29,213 bases of DNA, taken from NCBI GenBank assembly GCA_002179805.1, contig NAVB01001219.1, positions 1-29,213 on the forward strand. Direction: 5' to 3'. How positions within the stretch are numbered: position 1 is the first letter of the stretch; every line of letters begins with the position of its first letter. The position numbers were made by a program, and so were the translations under genes. Below the pieces are notes generated by a model. The model was not told the DNA's origin, made no database searches, and saw nothing but the letters and a program-made list of their open reading frames with translations. The DNA comes from Acanthamoeba lenticulata (lineage: Eukaryota; Discosea; Longamoebia; Acanthamoebidae). Positions 2,069-28,100 of the stretch are shown here, piece after piece.

Positions 2069-3771
2069 TTAACATTGTGGTTTTGATCGATGGCCAAAGA
2101 GAAAAAGGGAAGCACCCGCGATCGATCGAAAGGCCCGCAGAGCAGGATCCGTTAGCCCCACACCAGCGGCATCCATTTCTTGCAACAGGCTAATGCAGCG
2201 ATCGTGCTCCTGTGGGAGACACCCGCTAACATCAGAGGGGGCCACTGGTGTGTGCCGTATGAAGGGGCCCGGGGGGAGGGGGGTGGAAGGAGGGAGGCAG
2301 GAGAGAACAAAAGGCAAGCCAGCAGCCATTGCGCACCCCTTTTCGAAAGTGGAAGAGGACGAATGAGGTGTACACCAAGCTGTTGGGTTTGCAGTCCGTG
2401 CCTCTACGGCTAAACATGCGAAGGGTATTGTAGGCCTGACCAGACACGCGCAGGTGAGCAATGCCACGGACCTGCGGGGAAGGGGAGAGGGAGAGAGAGA
2501 GAAGCGACAGCTTAGACCCGAAGTCGCACCTCTTTCTCTTTGTCGTTCGTTAAATAGGTGTTGATCAGCGCGTGGGCAATGTGAATATTGGGCTGCAGGC
2601 CCATCTTGACCATGTCGGTAAGCACCGTCGCTGCCCTGAGGGCACAACAAGTAGATGGACGGGGGAGGAGGAGGCTCAGTAAGGAAGGCTCGGCCAGCTG
2701 GTCCCTGCTAGCTTGAGATCCATTGAATTGAAGCGTGCACGTACTCGCGCACCACGTTGCTATCCTTGACTTGAGAGAGGGCGACCAAGAGCGATCCGAT
2801 AATGCGCAGGAAGGTCTCTTTGTCAAGCTTCACCTGCAAAGAAGAGAAGAAGAAGAAGAAGATGGAAGGAAGAGACCGCCAGGCCGTCATCACAACGGAT
2901 GCCATATGTATCAAGGGCCGCAGGAAATCGGGGCTACCTGGCCAAAATCACGCTTGAAGTGCTCGTAATGCTTCAGGACTGGGCCTGTGCCCGTTGATGC
3001 GGTAAAGCGAGCGTAGTTCTTGAAGATTGCCAGATACGTGATTGGCGTTGGCTTGACGCCTGCAGGGCTGCAGGGTCAGTTGGTCCTTTCCCTCACAAGA
3101 AAAGGAAAGGCCACGGTGTCCTCGACAGATAAGAACAGAGAGCCAAGAAGTAGAAGTAGTAGTACCGGAATTCTGCATGTGGTGCAGCATGCTTTCGAGG
3201 TGTCGCGCGTGGGCACACGTCGCCAGCAGGGATGTAAATGCTTCCACGCCAGGCTCTAGCAAGGAGAAGAGCTCATGAGTGAAAAGCAAAGAAAAAGAGA
3301 AGGGAGAGGGGAGGGGAGGCAACACTCACCCACTCCATTTTTCTTCATTCGCAAGAAGACTTGGTAGGCCCACGCCTCAGTATCCCGGTTGACCACGCGA
3401 CCAAAGCCGTGAATAAATGCTACGTAGATGGCAAGAGTTGCCTTGTTGTTCTCTTCGTACGAATCCAGCAGGGCGAACGCCAAGTCGGGCCGGCGTTGAG
3501 CGGCACATCTTGCTATGAATTGTTTCAACGGAAAAAGTTTGTCGAGGTCAGCCTTGTATGTTTGTAGTTCCTCTTCCAAGTTGGTGCTCTTTGGCCGAAG
3601 GGTGAAAGATCGGGATGAGATTAGGGGAAGATTAGATGAAAGAAGAGGGGCTGCTCGTTGCATTCGCGCGCCTCCCGAACAGTATAATAGAGGGATTGTC
3701 CCAGCACGCGTCCATTGGAGATGGAGCGAGGTGCGAAAGCACTGCGCTGAGCGAAGAGAAGCACCAAGCAT
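2069..3771 (-). CDS. Pentatricopeptide repeat (PPR) protein, probably mitochondrial
   Basis: Phase-checked 7-exon model on minus: 3771-3330, 3255-3166, 3059-2938, 2833-2745, 2635-2530, 2471-2337 and 2209-2069; 1125 nt, 374 aa. The N-terminus (MLGASLRSAQCFRTSLHLQW, then more Arg/Ser-rich sequence) has almost no acidic residues and resembles a mitochondrial presequence. The body is helical-repeat sequence with PPR signatures, for example AYQVFLRMKKNGVEPGVEAF, HHMQNSGVKPTPITYLAIF, TVLTDMVKMGLQPNIHIAHA and LLQEMDAAGVGLTD. I count about six repeats. PPR proteins bind organellar RNA one base per repeat and act in its processing, stability or translation; the target cannot be read here. All introns are GT-AG. 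The start follows an A/T-rich stretch and lies only 67 bases from the upstream gene's stop. A start further upstream in the same frame is possible but would be less like a presequence. Confidence 0.8.
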
Positions 3772-3838
3772 CTGTGGCGCCCAAAAAAAAAAACTGAGAA
3801 GGAAACAAAGAAGCGGAAGAAAAAAATTTCTGCACGCA

Positions 3839-4723
3839 TTAGTGATTTCGAGGTAAAAGCGCCACAGCTCTTGGCCAGTAGCCACAGCTAAACCACATCA
3901 GCCACGACGAAGAGTAGTCCTGGTCCCCTTCTTCTTCTTCTTCATTCTCCTTTTCAGACTGTACGTTTTCACGGGCACAGTCACGGACAACAGTTCTCTC
4001 TTCCTGCTGAAAGCTTCCATTGGCTTCGTCCTCCTCGTCGTCCTCCTTCACCTCTTGTTCTTCGTACTGCCAGTACCGAAGAATCGGAATATCGTCCATC
4101 TCTGCACGAGCCACTTCGTCGTCCGGACACACAGCCCCACTTGCGGGATGGTGCTCCCGAAAGAGCAGTAGTCTGCCACGTTCCTCTTCGCGGTCCCGTA
4201 ACCGTTCTTCGGCTTGACGTTCCTCGTGGACGTCACTGTCGCTACTCAGTCCAACGTGGCCCCACGGGTCTACCGACCGTGCTCGCGTGACAGCGCAAGC
4301 GCGGGTGGCTTGCTTGCGTTCTTTCTCCCGACGACGCTGTAGGCCCTCAAGGCGTCGTTCTAACTTCTCTAGATAGGCGCGGTGCTCGGCCTCGTCCGTT
4401 GCACGACGCTCGTCGTCGGTCATGAATGCTGGTGAAGAAGGAAACACTGCGGCCACAACTGCACCAGGAAGGTGCACCTCACGAAACTTGGTGGTGCTCT
4501 TGGTTGGACGCCCAACCGAGGCACTCGGTGTGTCTGCCGAGAAAGCGCGCTGCAGAAGGCCGTCGCCAAGAGGGGGACTGGCGCACGAGGGTGCAGCATT
4601 GGGCGGGGCTTCGCGTAGTGTCGTGTCAGATGACTCGCGTTGGGCTTGTTGGCTCGCAGAAGAAGCCTCTACCTCGATACTATGCCGCCACCAACCCTCT
4701 TCCATGCACTCTGTGGTCACCAA
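3839..4723 (-). CDS. Uncharacterised charged, coiled-coil protein
   Basis: Single open frame of 294 aa with no recognised family. The first 90 residues are Ser/Ala/Pro-rich and probably disordered. Residues of about 100-195 are strongly charged, with an Arg/Lys/Glu stretch (EKLERRLEGLQRRREKERK and later ERQAEERLRDREEERGR) likely to form a helix or coiled coil. Next come acidic runs (KEDDEEDE, ENEEEEEGD) and a short aromatic C-terminus, WLMWFSCGYWPRAVALL, which could be a membrane-facing or buried helix. It is divergent to SmD1 with 159 bases between the starts, and lies 67 bases upstream of the PPR gene on the same strand. A splice into the PPR reading frame cannot be excluded, but the PPR gene has its own presequence-like start. 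Confidence 0.55.
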   Translation of the reverse strand: MVTTECMEEGWWRHSIEVEASSASQQAQRESSDTTLREAPPNAAPSCASPPLGDGLLQRAFSADTPSASVGRPTKSTTKFREVHLPGAVVAAVFPSSPAFMTDDERRATDEAEHRAYLEKLERRLEGLQRRREKERKQATRACAVTRARSVDPWGHVGLSSDSDVHEERQAEERLRDREEERGRLLLFREHHPASGAVCPDDEVARAEMDDIPILRYWQYEEQEVKEDDEEDEANGSFQQEERTVVRDCARENVQSEKENEEEEEGDQDYSSSWLMWFSCGYWPRAVALLPRNH

Positions 4724-4882
4724 AATGCTGGTGTTTTATCTTTATTGTGTTTTCCTTTCAAATGTGCTGTTTTTCCGCCGCTAGCAGCTTTAGGTCTGCG
4801 CAGGTTATGGGACGGTTTTTGCAGAGACCTGGTTTTCTTCTTTTCGCCCCTCGAGATCTCGCGTCCCTGTTGAACACACAAG
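4724..4882. promoter_or_regulatory. Divergent promoter region (charged protein gene / SmD1)
   Basis: 159 bases separate the two start codons, so both promoters and 5' UTRs must fit here. The left half is T-rich and the right half contains pyrimidine tracts leading into the SmD1 start. I see no certain TATA box. Confidence 0.45.
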
Positions 4883-17059: not shown

Positions 17060-20000
17060 TTGCCCCACCCAATGAACTACAACACCAGCAACAAGTCGAG
17101 CACCTGTGTGAAGGAAGGCCTGTCCCGGCTGGCCAGTGGCGGGTGGGCTCCGTTACAAGCATCGTTCTGCTCCCAGCTGGGGACGCAGCCTGCATCAGGG
17201 GCGTCAGCGGTGCGCCTTGTTGATCACTCGGCAGGAGTGGATGCCCAGGTCAGACTTCTTCCCTTTATAGGGCGCGCACACACGCGATGGCTCACGTGTT
17301 GCGGAAACAGGGTCGCTGTTGGTTATTTGGGGGCTTCGACGGAACTGCGCGCACCGTGAGGGGCTCGTTGTTGCGGTGGGATTTGGGCTGCGACGAAGAA
17401 GAGGAACTTGATGCCGACCGATGCCCGTCTGCTGTCGTGCAGTTCATTTCAAGTGATGGTGCGGGGGCAGCGCCCTCTGCTCGGAGTGCACACGCCGCTG
17501 CGATGACCCCGACCAAATTGTACACCCCCCCACCCGACCTGGCGCGCGTGCACGCTCTCTCTTTTGCCGCTCAAACTCCGGTTAAAATGCAACCATGCGT
17601 GAACTGGCGGGTGCCAGGTTTATCCATGGCGGACAGGGCAGCCAGACCTATGCTGACCTATTCTGCTATAGTTTCGGTGCGCGCACCCTTTCTTTTGTGC
17701 GCGAGATGTGCCCCCATCCCGCCCTTTTTTTCGCCCTCTCAACTTCCTCTTTTGGGGGAATGAAAACCCGCTACCCAGGGCTCGGGGTGTGGTCTTGCCT
17801 GCCGAACAAAGGCGCAACGGCACCGAGCGCCCGGAGTGGCCACACACTAGTCTGGCACGCTGAAGCCGATGCGGACCTCGAGGATGGCGCGCCCTTGTCG
17901 GAGCGTCGTGGCGGCCACCTCTACCTGTTTGGTGGCACTGACGGCACGACGGGCACCCACTGTTCGGCCCCCTTCTATCGTTACTCGCTCGGTACGTGCA
18001 CGGGTCCACATCCTCATGCCCGGCCTCCTATGGTGGTTGCTTTGCTTTGCTTTGCTTGATTGAGCATGGTGGTGGGGGAGGGCATGACGAACAGACCGAG
18101 GGGCTTGGGAAGAGGAGCCCGCTTACGGCGTGGTGCCCAACCGGTACGGTCACACAGCTGTGGTCGCCGACAACGCCATGTGGATCTTTGGGGGCGTCGA
18201 GGAAGGCAACTGCTACACCAACTCTGTCTACGTCTACCATTTTGGTAACCCCCCCCCCCCAATCCTTCCCCTTTCTCATTCCTCCTTCCCACAGCCTCGC
18301 CCCCACCATCACCACCCGCTCTCGGAGAGGAAAGGAAAGAGAGAGAAGGCGTGTGTGCAGACCGCAGGGGTTGGGCTGACTCGCACACATGTGATGGCGC
18401 GGTGGCTCTCATGCTGCTGCTGCTGCTGCTGCTGCTGCTGGGCGTGCGCGTTCCAGGGACGCGTAACTGGCAGCGCCTCTCGTGTTTTGGCGACTCTCTC
18501 CCGGCCCCCCGCACCCGCCATGCCGCAGCGCTCTACCAGGGGCGGCTCATGCTCGTCTCCGGTAGGCATTGTGCCCCCCCCCCCTCTCCCTCTCCGCCCT
18601 CCCCCTGATTGGGTGGGATGCCGGAGGAAGGGAGGGAGAGCCTTCCCTCTTGCACATGCATTTCCCCTGATGTCATTTCCATTGTATCTTTCTTTCGATC
18701 TTGGCGTGATGTGTTCCCAGGCGGCTGCAACCAAGAACGCTGTTTTGATGATCTGTGGGCCCTTCATCTGGGCTCAAGGACGTGGACTCGCCTGGGTCCC
18801 TGCTCTCCCTCTCCCTCTTCTTTACGGCCCGGACCTCCCTACCAGAAGGCCACTTCAGTTACCGACGACGAGGCGCGAGGAGCAGCTCAAACCGATGCTC
18901 CGCATCATCATCATGCCTCCGACACGCACCACCACCACCACCACCAACAACAACAAAAACAACAAAAACAAAAATGGCAGCAAGGCGGTGTTGTTGTTGA
19001 TGATGAAGAGGAGGAGGAGGAGGAGGAGGTAGAAGAAGAAAGGGAGCGGCTACGGGAGGACGAAGCAGAGGAAGTGAGCGAAGGCCAAGGAGAGTGGCGA
19101 CATTGGCCGTCGGCGCGGAGAGACCACAAGTTGGTGGTGTGGGGCGAGCGCCTCTTCATGGTAGGAGGCAAGGGCTTGGGCAGCTCCTATCCCGATCTCG
19201 ACTCCATTTCCCACTGCGTCCTGGGTGCTTCACCACCCTCCCCCTCCCCTCCCCCCCCAATCCACATCCCCCTCCTCGCCGCCACCACGAAGTGGAGGCA
19301 TCTGTATCTAGATAGAAGCGCTGCTGTGGTCTTTACAAGTGGCATATTGATCTCCTACCTGTCAATCACAAACAACCAATCAAAATATATCACGCGCTCG
19401 TCTGACTCGTGCCCACGTGTGATCGCCGTGATGTTACTGTGGTGAGGCGATGACTGCTGCTGCTGCTGTTGTTGCTGCTGCTGCTGCTTACAGGCCAGAA
19501 CCTCCTCCTGGCTGACGGGGTCGCCCAGTTTGCTGGTGGTGTTCCGCCCTCTAACGGCAGGGTCTACACTTTCGGGTTCGGCAAGCACGGCCAAGTACGC
19601 GCCTCCTCTTCTTCCCCTTCTTCTCCCTCTTTTTCTTCTTCTCCTCCTCCTCCTCCTCCTCCACCGAGGCTCCTCCGAGGAGGGGCGGGAGGAGCTTATT
19701 GGGGGTGAGGGGGGGGGGGAGAAAGAAAGAGGGACAGAGAATGAAGGCGCTGCGATTGCACGCGAAACACACGCACACACTCACTGGCTGTGTGGTGGCT
19801 CGTCTAGCTCGGCCATGGGACGCTTATGCACGCGACGGAGCCTGAACTTGTGCGAGCGCTCGGCGCCATGCAAATCGTCCGCGTAGCCTGCGCGGGCGCC
19901 AAAACATACGCTGTCTCCTCGCGTACGTTAACTGCTCAAAAAGAGAGAGTTTGCCTGGCGTGTGTCGTGTTGCTGAAAGCTCTCGTAGATCCTACTCTCG

Positions 20001-23000
20001 TAGGTCCCCTCCCCCCCACCACCACTTCTATAGACGTTAACTTGGCGGATGGGGGTGGGGGGTTGGATCACAGAGGGCAAGGTCTACCAATGGGGAGGCG
20101 AGGGAGAGAGAGCCACCTGGCGGTTCTTTGGCCATGAGGGAAAGCTGCTTCCACGGCCCGTTCAGGGCCTCCTCGCTCATCGCCAAGTGTCTTCCGTCGC
20201 GCCGGCTTGCCTCCACGTCGCTGCGCTCACGCACACAGGTTGCTACCGTATCTCTCTCCCTTTTTTTTTTTTTGTTTGTTCTTTTCCCTCTCTCTCTCTC
20301 TCTCATGTTTCGTGGGCTTCCTTTCCCTCCCGCTCGTATTCTCATCGCCACCTCCACCACCATCGGGACTTGTATGTGTTGTATGCATGTATGTGCTCGG
20401 TGATTTATCTGGTTTGTGATTTGTTTTGTTTATGCGCACGTATGTGTGTTTGTGTGTACTGGGGCGTGTCCAGGCGTGCGCGGATCCGAGCAGGTCTACC
20501 TCTGGGGCGAGGAAGCCGCCCCGATCCATAAGGGCAGCACGTCACCTCATCCATTTCTGCCTCTCCAGGGCCTCCGCGTGACTCAACTCGCCTCCACAGC
20601 TCTCTCCACACTCGCCATCACCGGTACTTCTCTTTTTTTTTCTTCTTCTTTTCTCCTCTCTCTCTCTCTGCGCTGCCCTGGACCTCTCTCCTCCTCCTCC
20701 TCCTCTTCCTCCTTGTCTTCCTGTGCCGCGCAGAGTCCCTCTCTCTCTCTGCTCTCTCTCTCTCTCTCTCTTCCATCCACCCGTCCTCAGTACGATCCAA
20801 AGAAGGGACATGCTGAGCGTGGAGGGCGGTCTCCTTCTTCTTCTTCTTCCTCCTCCTCCTCGCCCTCGTCCTTGTCCTCGCCCCCCGTCTCATGATTCGC
20901 CGGGCCAGAGGAGCACGTGGCCTACGCATGGACGCTAGGCCGCGACACCCAGATGCGCGTGATCCAGTCGCCCTTCAATGATAAGCCCCTTCCAGTGGTG
21001 GAAGTGGCTTGCGGAGGCTCCCACACTCTGTTCCTCACCCGTACTTGTTCCCCCCCCCATTGGGACTGTGTCCACACAAACACACAAACACACATACACA
21101 CGCACACGCACACGCACACGCACACGCACACGCACACGCACGCGCACGCGCACGCGCATACGAAAACGGAGCAAAACACAAAACAAAACAAACCCATTGG
21201 CCAACTTTGTCATGTGGGGGGGGGGGGAGGAGCAAAGATCAAGGACTCGTGTTCTCTCACGGCGGGAACAGTTACGGACAGGTTCTCTTCTCTGCTCTTC
21301 CCTCCTTTTTTGCTGCAAGATCTAGAAGAATGATGGGGCGTGCATATGGGGATATGGCTAACAAGAGAGTGCGCGCTCACTAGAGAGGCACAGGGAACAC
21401 AGAAGCAGACGACAGTCCCACGCTGGTGTCCACGATCTCGCACGTTCGTCGAGTGGCATGTGGCGATAATCACTCGCTCTGCGTAACGAGTGAGGGCATG
21501 CTCTACACCTTTGGCCAGGCACGTATCTCCTCCTCCCCCTTCCTGCCCCCTCCCCCCTTCCATATTTATTTATTTATTTATTTATATATCCGCCGACAGT
21601 TACTGACAGACTGCTCTCTCTCTCTCTCTCTCGCTCTTACGACAATAACCACAATGATGCTCTCTGTCTACTGGGACCATGTGCTCACCAACCAGGGTAA
21701 ACACGGGCAGCTCGGACACGGCACGCGCACCGACTGCTGGGTCCCCACGCGCGTTGAAGCGCTTTCCGACGTCGTGGAGGTGCGGGGGGAGAGAGGAGAG
21801 AGGAGGAGAGAGGAGAGAGGAGAGAGAGGCATAATCACGCACACATAAACGACCTCCAGTCCCTTGCTCCCCCCCCCCAAATCCTCCTCACCAATGGGGG
21901 GGGGTGGCACGTGCAGGTGGCCGGTGGTGGTGGTCTCGGCGTGTCGCACTCAGTAGCTATCACTGCACGGGGCGAATGCTTCACGTGGGGCGGTGCGCGT
22001 GCACTCCTCCCTCCTCCCTCCTTACTCCCTCCCCCCCCTCTTCCCGCTCCATATCACTCCCCTCCTCCCTCCCTCCACTCTGCTTGGGCCCTCTTCTCCC
22101 CCCCTCCCCCTCCCAAACAAGGAAGGATGTGAGCGCACTCATGAAGAGAACGAGACCAAACACACTCACTTGAGGATAGAGAGAGAGAGAGAGAAAGAAA
22201 GAAAGAGCGGGATGGATTGGATGGATCAAGTAGGTCGGTAGATTGACGAAGAACGAGAAGCCGAGGAGAGGGACGAAGAGAAGCAAGTTCTCTGCCTCAC
22301 ACCCACCCTCCAGGCGGGAAGTACGGGCAACTGGGGCATGGGCCCGCTTCCTCCCATGACGAGCTGGTGCCTCGCCTCGTGGCTGCGCTTGCCGGCAGGC
22401 GCGTGGTGGGTGCTGCTTGCGGGTGGCTACACACTGCCCTCCTCGTTGGTACCCCCCCCCCCGAATCGTCACCTTGGTCACCAGTGTGTATCTGTGTGCC
22501 AAACACCCACAAGGATATGTCTTTTTATGTCTAAATATATATTTGCACACACGCGCACACACACGGCGCTCACACTCGCACACCCACCACATTCGTATGG
22601 CGCGTGGCTGCCGGGGGTTCTCGCGTGGCCGGTTCTGTGCGTGTCCCAACATGTGTTTTGGATTATGCCGTGTGCAGATGAACCTCCCATGTTGGCGGCG
22701 ACCAAGTGCCTCATGCAGGCCCGTGTCGCGGTCCGAGAGTGCACCGCGCTCGGCCTGTTTGAGGCGCTTCCCAATGAGCTGCTCTTCCTTGTGTTCTCCC
22801 TCCTCGACCTGAAAGGGCTGGGCCAACTAGCTCGCATTAACTCAACGTTCAAGATTGTTTCCGAGGGTGCGCAGAACTTGTCTGCCTTCTGCCTGCTGCC
22901 TGCTGCTGCTCTGAATCATCATCATCATCAGCCTCGCCATCATGATGAGTTGCTGATGTGCACATTCTGTGGCCTATCAGACGATGAGCTGTGGAGGCCC

Positions 23001-25079
23001 CTCTACGTGGCCCGGCGCCAGCAGATTAATCCCTGGATCAGCCCGGCACAGATGGCCACAGAAGTGGGGGCCATCGCAGCTCAGAGGCAGCCCTGGAAGA
23101 TGGCCTTCCGCGCCTCCTACGCTACGAATAGTTCCTCGTCGTCTACGTGCGCCCTCCCTCTTGCTTGTCCCCTCTCGCCGACGTTCATTTTTTGCTCCGT
23201 TTTCTTGCTTTCTCAGCTGGCGAGCCGCCCATGAATTTTTTTTTGCGGGCGGGGGGGGGGAGGCGAGTAGGCAGAGCTCCAGAACGTCGCAATCGAGCTG
23301 GAAGTCGGGCGGCGGACTGGCCTCCTTCCTGGGTCGCTCGTTTGTTGGGCGCCTCCTTACCGGCCAACGCGAGGTGCGCCTCCTCATGGTCGGGCTTGAC
23401 GCCTCGGGTACGAACTTTTCCCCACATACGATTTCTATTTTTCCTAAAATATATATTTACAAAAATGTTCATTGGGATTCATGAACCTTTCTGCTCTGTT
23501 CTGCTTCAAATCAAATGAAAAGGGTCATATCATCAAAAAATCTCCACTCACCACACGCTCCATCGCCTGGGCAGGCAAAACGACGATCCTGTACCGCCTC
23601 AAGTTGAACGAGGTGGTCACCACCATCCCCACCATCGGCACGCGCTTGTTTCCTCCTCCTCCTCCTCCTCCTGCTCCTTCTCTTCCTCTTCTTTTCCTTC
23701 CTCTCCCCCATATACCCATAAACCCATACATGGGTGGGGCACTGGCTTGCGTTCTCTTTTCCTCTCAGACGTCCAAACTATTGCCGATTTGGGGATCCCC
23801 CCACGTGGCCTGACGATGATCCCCCCCTCTTCTCTCTCTCTCTCTCTCGTGCTCACAGGGTTCAACGTGGGTCCGTGCGGGGGCGGCTCTCCCAACCCCC
23901 CTCCCCCCTCCTTCCTCTCCCTAATTCGGATCTGGTTGGGAGGGGGCTCCTTTCTTCTTCCTGCGAGGCACCGGGATTGGATGAGAGGGGAGGTTATTTA
24001 TGTTGGTGGGGGTGGTGGAGTGGTGGTGGACTGACCTCTTTCGTTGGTCCTGTCGTGTCATGACGGCAGAAACGGTGGAGTATCGCAATTACAATCTGAC
24101 CTTTTGGTTGGTGCCCCTCCCCCCCACTCTTTTCTTTCGGGCGTTGTTGTGCTTTTGTGAACCACAAGAGAGCTCTTCCCCCCCGGGTTCTCTCGTGGTT
24201 CACACTGATGGGGTTCTTCTTCTTCTTGTGTCCCTGGCTCTGCTCGCGCGTGTGTTTGGGGCCCCGGGGGGCTTGGGGCGGGGCAGGGATGTCGGAGGAC
24301 CCGACAAGGCACGTGAATGCTCATTCACTTCCGCGCACGTTCCTCGAGGCTGAGCTAACACCCTCTCCCCTCATGTCAATTGGGCCATCGTCCTTGGGGT
24401 TGGCACTTACACCAAATGAAGATTCGACCGTTGTGGCGGCACTACTACTGCAACACGCAAGGCGTCGTGATGGTGGTGGACTCCAACGACCGGTATGTGG
24501 TCCCCTCCCGCTTCTTTCTGTTTTCTCTTTCTCTCCTCTGTCGCCACCCCGCTGTAGTAGTAGTACCAGTGGCCTGTTCTGGGGGTGTTTGGCGTTTTAT
24601 CAAAAGATGTCGTTGTCTCATTCTGCTCGTCCCCCCCCCCCTCTCCTCTACCCAGAGAACGCGTGAGCGAGGCGGCAGATGAGCTGCACCTAATGCTCGC
24701 CGAGGACGAGCTTCGCGATTGTGTGTGCCTCATCTACGCGAATAAGCAGGACTTGCCAGGCGTGCGTGTGCACCTCTAGATACACACACACACACACACG
24801 CACGCACATCATCCGATTTGAGCCTCACGCCCTCTCTTCTTTCTCCTCGATTGCCAGGCGATGAATCCGAGCGAGGTCGCAGAACATCTGCGCCTGAGCA
24901 GTTTGCGGCGCACTCACCTCCACCTGCAGCCCTGCAGTGGCATCAGCGGTGCGCAGCCTCTTTTCACATACAACCCCTCAAACACGGGCCCTGACACTAC
25001 GGGCACCATGACCACAGGGGAGGGACTCCTAGAAGGCGCGGAGTGGCTTGTGGCAGCGCTCAACCACAAGCGCGGCTAG
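17060..25079 (+). CDS. Four-domain fusion: Kelch propeller, RCC1 propeller, F-box, Arf-type GTPase
   Basis: Phase-checked 28-exon model, 3552 nt, 1183 aa. Exons: 17060-17248, 17311-17519, 17618-17676, 17779-17991, 18113-18244, 18457-18561, 18721-19224, 19494-19594, 19808-19922, 20074-20238, 20474-20623, 20909-21040, 21244-21281, 21384-21518, 21696-21779, 21917-21992, 22314-22448, 22678-22866, 22981-23146, 23217-23407, 23575-23637, 23859-23870, 24070-24106, 24287-24308, 24422-24492, 24656-24761, 24858-24948 and 25018-25079. Residues 1-470 hold six Kelch blades, 471-847 seven RCC1 repeats, about 875-925 an F-box, and about 990-1183 an Arf GTPase. F-box proteins recruit substrates to SCF ubiquitin ligases via Skp1; propellers usually bind the substrate. 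Frame and phase hold across every domain junction, and no in-frame Met lies between the F-box exon and the Arf P-loop region. ATG 17072 is an alternative start. No function is known for this combination. Confidence 0.82.
17311..19224 (+). other. Kelch propeller part of the fusion gene
   Basis: Exons 2-7. Kelch blades are seen as [82 protein letters not shown] and [20 protein letters not shown]. The usual GG doublet and R-x-GH/H pattern are present in most. Exon 7 adds, between blades 5 and 6, a low-complexity insert with His runs, Gln/Lys runs and a long Glu run (about 18880-19080). Six blades is the usual number for a closed Kelch propeller. Confidence 0.85.
18412..18440. repeat. (CTG)n repeat in fusion-gene intron 5
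   Basis: About nine CTG units just upstream of the exon 6 acceptor. A similar CTG-rich stretch lies near the acceptor of intron 7 (about 19454-19490). Both fall in the polypyrimidine-tract position. Confidence 0.8.
21065..21165. repeat. (CA)n / (CACACG)n microsatellite in fusion-gene intron 12
   Basis: About 100 bases of CA and CACACG units degrading into CGCACG, within the intron 21041-21243. Confidence 0.9.
21562..21586. repeat. (TTTA)n repeat in fusion-gene intron 14
   Basis: About six TTTA units. A similar TTTA array sits in an intron of the HGSNAT-like gene at 8040-8062. Confidence 0.85.
22678..23146 (+). other. F-box part of the fusion gene
   Basis: Exons 18-19, joined by removing 22867-22980. 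The motif reads [20 protein letters not shown], then [20 protein letters not shown] followed by DELWRPLY, matching the F-box pattern of L-P-x-E-L, hydrophobic L-D-L, L-x-x-V/I-N and final L-W. It is followed by the common F-box tail [11 protein letters not shown]. Leaving the intron in keeps the frame but interrupts the motif with Leu/His-rich sequence. Confidence 0.82.
23217..25079 (+). other. Arf-type GTPase part of the fusion gene
   Basis: Exons 20-28. G1 is VGLDASGKTT, switch I TTIPTIGFNVETVEY, G3 [18 protein letters not shown]4 ANKQD and G5 about PCSGISG. Identity to canonical Arf is high (MLAEDELRD and SNDRERV are Arf-like word for word). Just before G1, [19 protein letters not shown] parallels the amphipathic N-terminal helix of Arf, but it is internal here, so there is no N-terminal Gly to myristoylate. 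The Gln that catalyses GTP hydrolysis in Arf (Gln71 in Arf1) is Pro, codon CCC at 24300-24302. Introns starting with GC follow exons 21 and 24. Confidence 0.88.
24157..24203. repeat. Inverted repeat (hairpin) in fusion-gene intron 23
   Basis: Arms 24157-24171 (GTGAACCACAAGAGA) and 24189-24203 (TCTCTCGTGGTTCAC) pair over 15 bp with a single mismatch and a loop of about 17 bases containing a C-run. It lies inside the intron 24107-24286 between the switch I and switch II exons. It does not form a tRNA cloverleaf. Confidence 0.75.
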
Positions 25080-25167: not shown

Positions 25168-28100
25168 TCAGCTCGCCGTCAGGGCCTCTCGGGCAACGCG
25201 AGCGAGCTTGGTCAGGGCAAATTGGCGGTCACCGAGCTCCTTGTCGCGTTGTAGCTTCGCTGTTTCGATGGCGTCGATCTCCTTTCTCGTGCTGATCAAG
25301 TCGTCCTCTTCCACGTTGAGATCGTTCAAGTATCTCTTCATCAAGTCGGAGTTGGTCATCTTGTCCAGCGACCTGATATTCTCGCGGAGTCTGTTCTGGT
25401 TTTGGAAGACCTTATCGATGTGGCGCTTGTGGTTGTCAATCTGCCGTTGCATCTCCGCAGTCGCAGCCCTGAGCTCGAGCACTTTCTGGGCTGCCGTGAG
25501 GATCTTTTCGTCCAGCAGCTTTCCGCCAACTGAGGAACCGGACGCCCAATCGCTGACCTGGCGGTCTGAGAACCTACACACACACACACAGACGCCTCCA
25601 TCAGCCCTCGTTCGTTGCGTCGTCTCCTCATTGGCATCGATGTTGAGGTGAGGAGATGATGCATCATCGTCGTGCACTTGCACGTGCCTTCCTGACTCCA
25701 GAGATTGGAGCGCTGCGTGAGCCTCCTCTCGGATGATGATGCCCTTGAAGATGTCGAGCGTCTTCTCTTCCATGGCGACGGCTAGCAGCAGGTCCGGAGC
25801 GCGCTGCTTGACGAATTGGACGAGGCTGCCCGTAGTGAGCAGATCTGTCGTGTAGGTCGCTTCCTCTGCCACCACGAACTCGATCTCCCCTTGCGGCGGC
25901 AGATAGAACTGTGGTGCGTATGTGCGTATGGGCGTGGTTCCCATGGGACAAGGTCTCCCGATTAGAGAAGGTCGACACACATGAACACCCCCCCCCCACA
26001 CACACATGATCAAGTAATGACCATGACTGACCGGGACGAGCGGGCTCTTCCTTATTCCCCCCCCCCCAACCCCACAAGGGCAAATCCCCTCCCGATCCCA
26101 TCCCGGGCGGTGAGTACCTGGAATCGGTTGAAGCCCGTCACGGACTTGATGCAGCTCTCCATGGTCTTGATGACGAATCCGCCATGGTTAACGTCCGCGT
26201 TGTGATCGATGTAGAACTTGTTGATCGCTCTGTCCGTGGAGTTGTTTTTGACCGTATACCGCGTTCGCCTGACCTTCAAGTGGGTCTGGCGGCATCCGAC
26301 CGGCCTGCGGTTCGAGCCAGTGGAGTAGAGGATGCCGATACCCTTGATGTTGTCCTCCTGCAACTCGGACGGCATCGCCTTCACGATGCTGACGGTGGAG
26401 TCATAGCCGTAGGGGATCAGCTGGTCGTCCCCTATGTATGGATTAAGGGTCGCGTGCATTCCAAAAGGGGAGTGTGTGTGTGTGTGTGTGCGGATCGGTC
26501 GAGTTAAAACAACTGACCCCAAACCACCAATGGTGAGGAGGAGGGGGAGAGGGAGAGACAGAGAGAGAAAGGGAACGCACCAGGCAGCATCGGCGTAAAC
26601 TGGCTCTGTGACACGAACCGCCCGTCCTCGAGCACGGAGATGAGGCCCGGGGCGAGCACTTGGCCAGTCGAGTTCTTCAGGTGGACCGCGCGCACCGCGT
26701 TCAGCTCGTTGATGCGGGAGTCGTACACGAGCACGAGATCGCCCTCCACAGCCGACGATGCGATGGGCACCAGGCAGCTCTCCTTGGCCCTGATGGTAAC
26801 TGGCACGCTGATGTCGTAGATGACGTGCTTGGCCAGGCCGCTCATCTGGGCGGCGTCCAACGACTCGAACTCTTCGTCCCCGCTGCGAGAGGAGGCAGAA
26901 GAGGAGGAGGAGGAGGAGCTGGAGTTGGCGTCGTTCTCGCCCGCAACACATCCGCGCAGGCGGAGCACCAAGTGGAGGGTGGACTCCTTCTGGATGTTGT
27001 ACTCGGCGAGCGTGCGGCTCTCCTCGAGCTGCTTGCCAGCGAAGATCAAGCGTTGCTGGTCGGGAGGAATTCCTTCCTTGTCCTGCAGCTTGTGCTTGAC
27101 GGTCTCGATGGAGTCGGAGGAACTCACCTCCAGGGTGATGGACTTGCCGGTGAGGGTCTTGATGAAGATCTGCATCGAGCTGCCGGAGGCGCTGGTCCGC
27201 TCCGCCCCACTCCTGCTTCCTCCGCCTCCTCCGCCAGCGCCGGCAGGCTTCTTGACCTCGTTGCTGCTGATCTCGAGCTCGTTGGCCACCAGGCGCAGCC
27301 GGATGCTGTTCCAGTCCTGAGCCGAGGCGTTCTTCACTTGACCGAACATGTGGAGGTGAAGTTCGGGCTGGCCGCAGCTGCTGTTCTGCTCGGCCCCGGT
27401 TCTGCGTTCTTTGTCCTGATGCGGCTCCTCCTTGGCCCTTTCCTTGCCCTTGGCCAGTTCGTCGGCGCGGGCGCTGCGTTCGAGAGACTCGTCGCTGGGG
27501 ATCTCCAGGCGGTAACTGCACTTCCACTCCTCCGTGCGGTCGATGTAGGACACCTTGAAGTGGCCTCCCGCGCGCACGCCTGGGCCCGTGGTGGAGAAAT
27601 GGATGCTCGTGGTGCCCGTAGCGACCTGCACCGGCTTTCTGGCCTCGTAGAGCTTGGACAGCATCTGCAGCAGTTGGCCCTGCAGGTAGGTATCCAGCAA
27701 GCGGACGCTCTTCAAGTCCTTGAGCAAAACACGGCGAAGGTCATTGCCGTTAACCAATACGCACAGCTGCTTCTCCACGAGGGTGCCGTTTTCGATAGGC
27801 ACCACCCGATCCTCCACGGTGAACACGATCCCTGTTGTTGTATGTGTTTTGTAGGTAATAAATGTTGTGTTTTTTGGTTAGGGTCTTGAAAGGGGGATAG
27901 GCTTGGGCCCTAGCGTACCGCTGACGGTGTGGTCTTCCTTGGAGTCGGCCTGGGTAGTGTACTCCACAGGTGTGCCGGCACACGACTTGAGGAAGTCGGC
28001 GAAGGAGTCGCTCTTGAACTGGAAGGTCTCCTCGTGCCTGTCGCGCGCCTTTATCGTCTCGTGCAGCTCGCTGTCGTAGTTGACCAGCACCAGCCCAGGA

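Follow-up and report, generated by a model that had tools for sequence, protein, structure and literature searches.

Predicted gene structure and domain order of the locus

The window analyzed here, i.e., the whole stretch of 29,213 nucleotides, carries on its forward strand a predicted gene of 27 exons (17072-25079), in which one open frame passes through four domains, ordered in the full chain as Kelch, RCC1-like, F-box-like, and Arf according to Pfam. The gene model was assembled manually, guided by splice signals, by open frames, and by similarity at the protein level, and its features are compiled in Table 1. The predicted chain comprises 1201 aa with acceptor 23271 at the F-box to Arf junction and 1219 aa with acceptor 23217, both being in phase. 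All four domains named by the first-pass annotation were recovered, and the frame was found to be in phase throughout; however, the 28 exons and 1183 residues given there were replaced by the above values, and a different last acceptor was preferred. The junctions between Kelch and RCC1 (19224/19494) and between RCC1 and F-box (22448/22678) lie exactly where they had been placed, in phase. The N-terminus may correspond to either ATG 17072 or ATG 17287; the latter start lies in an extended exon 2 and likewise yields one frame, of 1150 aa.

Table 1. Features of the modelled gene, with positions in the window.
Feature	Position	Strand	Basis
Putative exon 1 (N-terminus)	17072-17248	+	Open frame, in-phase GT-AG splice
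Exons 2-7, Kelch propeller	17311-17519, 17618-17676, 17779-17991, 18113-18244, 18457-18561, 18721-19224	+	Pfam and phases
Exons 8-12, RCC1-like domain	19494-19594, 19808-19922, 20074-20238, 20474-20623, 20909-21040	+	Pfam
Exons 13-17, RCC1-like domain	21238-21281, 21384-21518, 21696-21779, 21917-21992, 22314-22448	+	Pfam
Exon 18, F-box exon	22678-23146	+	Pfam PF12937; LWRPLY and WKMAFRASY segments downstream of the F-box
F-box-like stretch, aa 874-904	22761-22853	+	Pfam match converted via the gene model
Intron 18, F-box to Arf junction	23147-23270 (alternative end 23216)	+	In-phase donor/acceptor pairs
Exon 19: linker, N-terminal helix region of Arf (no Met-Gly), beginning of the P-loop (GLDASG)	23271-23407	+	
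Arf GTPase domain, exons 19-27	23353-25055	+	PF00025; PDB
Exon 20 (20 residues), then GC-AG intron	23575-23637	+	
Exon 21, 12 nt, completes TIG-FNVETVEY	23859-23870	+	Exact match to the Arf switch region
Exon 22	24070-24106	+	
Exon 23, 22 nt, DVGGPDK, then GC-AG intron	24287-24308	+	
Pro codon CCC at the Arf1 Gln71 position	24300-24302	+	Sequence, alignments; nearest Gln codon differs by two bases
Exons 24-27, remaining Arf domain and stop TAG	24422-24492, 24656-24761, 24858-24948, 25018-25079	+	

The Kelch part matched the Pfam families PF24681 (141.3 bits) and PF01344 (78 bits) and features a His/Gln/Glu-rich insertion within exon 7. For the RCC1-like domain, 214.4 bits were obtained with PF25390 (aa 489-842) and 177 bits with PF00415, and the Arf domain reached 224.9 bits with PF00025 (aa 1048-1212), covering profile positions 8-172 of 174. 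By profile score, the F-box is the weakest of the four domains. Its F-box-like match (PF12937), spanning profile positions 1-33 of 47, scored 27.2 bits on exon 18 alone compared to 21.6 bits in the full chain, at a cut-off of 24.3.

GC-AG introns account for 3 of the 26 introns in the gene model (starting at 21519, 23638, and 24309), each opening with GCACG, and all nine introns modelled in two further genes of this genome (C1353 and C292, see below) are of the GT-AG type. The GC-AG introns and the 12-nt exon of the Arf part were placed by exact protein similarity. The very short exons 21 and 23 differ from the structure of 13 other Arf-type frames of the genome, which are single-exon.

No second copy of the four-domain gene was found among the 38 candidates, out of 210, that were scored in its own genome. 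Viral contigs and prokaryote genomes, for which no relatives were expected, yielded none, and a plasmid look-up of a window gene returned nothing. A neighboring frame on the opposite strand (26507-27877, minus strand) encodes a near-canonical ubiquitin at approximately 26954-27169 (PF00240, 102.7 bits) that ends in LRLRGC; this ubiquitin part sits inside the longer open frame, for which a weak DUF4139 match below the cut-off was also obtained.

The junction between F-box and Arf

The first-pass annotation had joined the F-box and Arf parts by splicing 23146 to 23217. This pair is in phase and still possible, but acceptor 23271 is preferred because of its better score, as calculated with a matrix built from the other modelled acceptors of the same gene. 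Donor 23146 scored 6.1, and the in-phase acceptors scored 5.8 (23271), 3.1 (23283), -0.2 (23217), -0.8 (23268), and -2.6 (23298). The resulting pair scores were 11.9 for 23146/23271, the preferred prediction for intron 18, and 5.9 for 23146/23217. The top acceptor, 23275 (9.7), cannot be joined in phase to the good donor 23146; of the donors with scores above 1.5, the weak GC donor 23219 is the only one that brings it into frame.

It had further been stated that no in-frame Met precedes the P-loop region. This holds for positions 23100-23385: in 23100-23419, the P-loop frame has its sole ATG at 23386, where the first GTPase strand is encoded. If unspliced, however, this frame has no stop as far upstream as 22957 and contains one ATG at 22984, which lies inside the F-box exon, where a different frame is used. 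These positions bear on an alternative with two neighboring genes, namely a Kelch-RCC1-F-box gene that continues beyond 23146 and stops at the TGA (23232-23234), next to an independent Arf gene starting nearby or inside the F-box exon, an arrangement that we consider quite improbable. In its favor, the unspliced F-box frame stops at 23234, only 88 bases beyond 23146 (ORF 22242-23234), the best-scored acceptor is the out-of-phase one, and the P-loop frame offers the upstream ATG just described. Moreover, ATG 23231 is out of the P-loop frame and separated from Arf by a run of ten G residues (23251-23260); one base more (or two fewer) in this run would bring it in frame, and a sequencing slip of one extra base would thus matter for a separate Arf gene. 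Neighbors of this kind do exist in the genome, since on C200 (L021) an Arf gene ending in a stop of its own lies ahead of same-strand RCC1 repeats; match positions had suggested an Arf-RCC1 fusion there, which was rejected because of this stop.

Two separate genes would, on the other hand, have to fit a terminator, a promoter, and a start into approximately 130 bases (23146-23275), or else the Arf transcript would begin within exon 18 and be translated through some 130 unrelated residues. In exon 19, linker codons precede the Arf N-terminal helix region and Met-Gly is missing; by contrast, 12 of the 13 single-exon Arf frames read in the genome start with Met-Gly. Chance neighborhood is also a poor account of the window gene because three further F-box-ARF genes were detected in the same genome. 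Judged from the genome sequence, it is very likely that Kelch, RCC1-like, F-box, and Arf are made as a single gene and transcript.

F-box-ARF genes of the genome and the catalytic residue of the Arf domain

The profilin encoded in the genome (48.5 Mb, 1825 contigs) aligned along its length with profilin II of Acanthamoeba castellanii (PDB 1f2k, E 3e-73), which assigns the window to an Acanthamoeba that is probably a species other than A. castellanii. This genome was searched for Arf, F-box, RCC1, and Kelch matches, which were compared by position among the matches listed. At least three further genes in which an ARF-family GTPase follows an F-box were identified, residing on C1353 (haplotig C1665), C292 (haplotig C1775), and, in pieces, C1022. 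The first encodes 309 aa in seven exons with GT-AG introns (F-box 32.0 bits, Arf 179.6 bits), its haplotig showing the same GGPDK, F-box, and P-loop motifs. The second encodes 456 aa (F-box 48.8 bits, Arf 163.5 bits), and its P-loop lies in the same open exon as the LW segment that directly follows its F-box. On C1022 (L022, reverse complement, approximately 3137-4870), an F-box of 42.0 bits is followed by ARF-family pieces that appear Sar1-like by eye, one of 25.3 bits and one, the middle piece holding a P-loop-like motif, matching no Pfam family; a putative N-terminal membrane segment or helix was also recognized by eye. The case that the first-pass annotation had set against a fusion, i.e., parts that are always separate neighboring genes, was not encountered for F-box and ARF inside this genome.

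The window gene shares an intron between W and D (phase 2) at the same Arf site with C1353 and an intron between K and IR (phase 0) at the same Arf site with C292. In a tree of 11 Arf rows, the grouping of the window Arf with C292 reached 68/69, which is below support, and C1353 was placed in an open fork; since the fused Arfs are unplaced in this tree, common descent of the fusions is without tree support. The genome-wide F-box list represents a lower bound, as 150 of 814 candidates were scored and the exons of the window gene and C1353 are absent from it. With a local F-box profile applied to the upstream stretches of 31 ARF-family loci, several of these stretches being short, only C292, C1775, C1022, and C1353 were above the inclusion threshold, three of the five training sequences having come from these matched genes, one from the window gene, and one from C1546. 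C1546/C945 was also considered as an RCC1-F-box gene and was rejected by eye on account of a Met/Pro-rich open frame in between.

The Arf fold of the window protein looks conserved because, outside of one lost residue, its identity amounts to 65% with Arf1 from the PDB, the best match there (E 1.2e-73), and to 63% with L027 of its own genome. The P-loop GLDASGKT, switch I TIPTIGFN, DVGG, and NKQD are kept. The N-terminal Met-Gly, the myristoylation site of most Arfs, is absent, the Arf domain being internal in the model with none before the P-loop. At the position of the catalytic Gln of switch II, Pro is encoded in the window gene (CCC) and in C1353 (CCG), and Leu in C292; in C1022, the stretch expected to contain the DxGG motif yielded none.

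As a control, the same position was compared in 21 other ARF-family loci of the genome, 19 of which feature Gln or the Sar1-type His, the exceptions being C752 (Leu) and C215 (Ser). That Gln or His was not found in four out of four F-box-ARF genes, versus 2 of the 21 others, corresponds to a Fisher p of 0.0012 (0.0049 without C1022), with the loci treated as independent, which they may not be. Merging L035 and L038, which were kept apart in the 21-locus control and are alike in 148 of 151 residues, changes these values to 0.0014 and 0.0056, respectively (2/20 others). Near-identical copies had been merged (L028/29/30, L031/32, L033/34, L036/37, and L045/46), and L040 and L052 were dropped, the residue not being covered. 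The control set was compiled leaving out weaker PF00025 matches among 99 (many of them other GTPases by judgement) as well as further loci such as C72, C780, C70, C34, and C853. An apparent Pro at the catalytic site of C440 was traced to a misaligned Sar1-type frame that actually has His.

The two exceptions have features of their own. C752 (L039, approximately 2989-3465 of the reverse complement) encodes an Arf that stands alone, begins with MGG, and has a degenerate switch I. In C215 (L044, 2691-3974), the ARF-like GTPase (84.5 bits) is preceded by a long extension at the N-terminus that looks like a coiled coil by eye, an arrangement reminiscent of the coiled-coil-ARF end of TRIM23.

Leu at the Gln71 position results in a GTP-locked Arf, and ARF proteins lacking this Gln can be regulated otherwise; to our knowledge, there is no assay for Pro at this position. 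A normal hydrolysis step is unlikely for the window Arf because Pro occupies the Arf1 Gln71 position, and for Pro we infer that GTP hydrolysis is probably slow or absent.

Proposed role of the four-domain protein

As the best explanation, to which we assign a probability of roughly 50%, the window gene would encode one SCF receptor protein carrying a slow or GTP-locked Arf as a membrane or effector tether. The F-box would bind Skp1 and thereby place the protein in an SCF ubiquitin ligase, while substrates would be chosen by the Kelch and RCC1-like propellers, the protein-binding domains found beside the F-box by profile matches. The C-terminal Arf would bind GTP and, with Pro for the catalytic Gln, hydrolyze it slowly or not at all. 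It may thus serve as a standing tether by which the ligase is recruited to membranes or partners of the Arf type, and not as a timed switch, because the P-loop, switch I, and guanine motif are kept but the Gln is lost and a Met-Gly start is missing; this role of the Arf is put forward tentatively, at slightly less than even odds. In HERC1, ARF1 is bound by the RCC1-like domains (RLDs), which may also free it of GDP (PMC6692442); the RCC1-like domain of the window protein could thus load the Arf in cis.

Both an Arf module in an SCF-type receptor and a receptor controlled by a GTP switch had been suggested at first. The former is supported, chiefly by the three other F-box-before-ARF genes of the genome; the latter is weakened by the Pro at the Arf1 Gln71 position, which a tether fits better. 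A real switch, in which the RCC1-like domain or a separate GEF/GAP would cycle the Arf and the GTP state would open or close the receptor, appears unlikely to us. The kept P-loop and guanine motif, the action of the HERC1 RLDs on ARF1 (PMC6692442), and the GTP-GDP cycling required by TRIM23 (PMC5794181) would agree with it, but the catalytic Gln is a Pro here, and Gln or His was found in none of the four F-box-ARF genes of the genome.

The F-box exon was also considered from the opposite side, namely as an F-box-like exon without Skp1 binding, so that the protein would be no part of a ligase and instead a propeller scaffold on an Arf anchor. The weak match, confined to the first 33 profile positions, and the long insertion ahead of the LW segment would be consistent with such a scaffold. 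PDB matches of the exon were insignificant (best F-box chain E 0.16), and its single-sequence fold was of low confidence (mean pLDDT 46.5), too poor for a structure search. On the other hand, a 13-residue stretch of the exon fits the F-box core consensus, the isolated exon clears the Pfam cut-off, and the F-box is the part beside the GTPase in all four genes. We regard a scaffold of this kind as very improbable, and binding of Skp1 by the predicted F-box as likely.

Beyond the single SCF receptor with its tethering Arf, a small Acanthamoeba class is conceivable, albeit doubtful, in which F-box receptors with an ARF-family domain devoid of the off-residue would provide GTP-locked addresses for SCF at membranes or coats. 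The window protein would be its most elaborate member, and its RCC1-like domain could load the Arf once, in cis. Should this hold, ubiquitin ligases would repeatedly have acquired fixed addresses made from ARF domains that once served as switches, offering a natural experiment on the behavior of an ARF domain unable to cycle, in contrast to TRIM23, for which cycling is required. RCC1-like domains, which touch ARF1 in HERC1, would then be tied to ARF in the same chain.

Comparison with known systems

Among more than 2,000 ARF family members, 75 multidomain sequences were reported by Vargova et al. 2021 (PMC8358228). Fusions of ARF with F-box or BTB form a class there, mostly lineage-specific, and are interpreted as having been recruited into ubiquitin circuits repeatedly. 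The F-box-ARF kind is therefore already known, and the predicted product of the window gene would resemble it in that an F-box is joined to an ARF-family GTPase, the two parts being in phase in the genome. It differs from what the main text of PMC8358228 covers, in which Kelch, RCC1, and Acanthamoeba do not occur, although an Acanthamoeba member could be among the 75 sequences; section 13 of that paper makes no mention of a loss of the catalytic residue. In the open-access literature (subscription papers and supplementary tables being outside this scope), neither a description of the order Kelch-RCC1-F-box-Arf nor a report of a shared loss of the catalytic residue in F-box-ARF genes was found. 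The first-pass annotation, which knew of no described protein with this order, is thus not contradicted within the open-access literature, but the F-box-ARF class and the E3-ARF fusion of TRIM23 had already been described. New here are probably the four-part variant of the known F-box-ARF fusions and, as it appears from the sequences, a loss of the catalytic residue that the F-box-ARF genes of this genome unexpectedly share. The genes on C1353/C1665, C292/C1775, and C1022 resemble the window gene in having an F-box followed by a GTPase, with the switch II Gln/His replaced or not found, but differ from it in that no Kelch or RCC1 lies beside them among the matches listed.

TRIM23/ARD1 is composed of RING, B-box, coiled coil, and ARF, and GTP-GDP cycling is required for its function (PMC5794181, PMC8358228). 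Like TRIM23 as presented in these sources, the window protein would have a ubiquitin-ligase part in front and an ARF1-like GTPase at the C-terminus; unlike TRIM23, it features a predicted F-box adaptor in place of a RING E3, propellers, and a Pro for the catalytic Gln. No RING or B-box family was matched in the window protein by Pfam at E values up to 0.01. FBXO24, an F-box and RCC1 protein interacting with SKP1 and CUL1 (PMC10932545), is similar in combining an F-box and an RCC1-like propeller in one SCF receptor, but two domains are given for it in that source, with no mention of Kelch or Arf in the passages concerned. In HERC1, which combines RLDs with a HECT domain, RCC1-like domains are likewise tied to ubiquitin ligation and to ARF1 (PMC6692442); there, however, the ligase is a HECT E3 and ARF1 a partner in trans, whereas the window protein has the Arf as a domain of its own.
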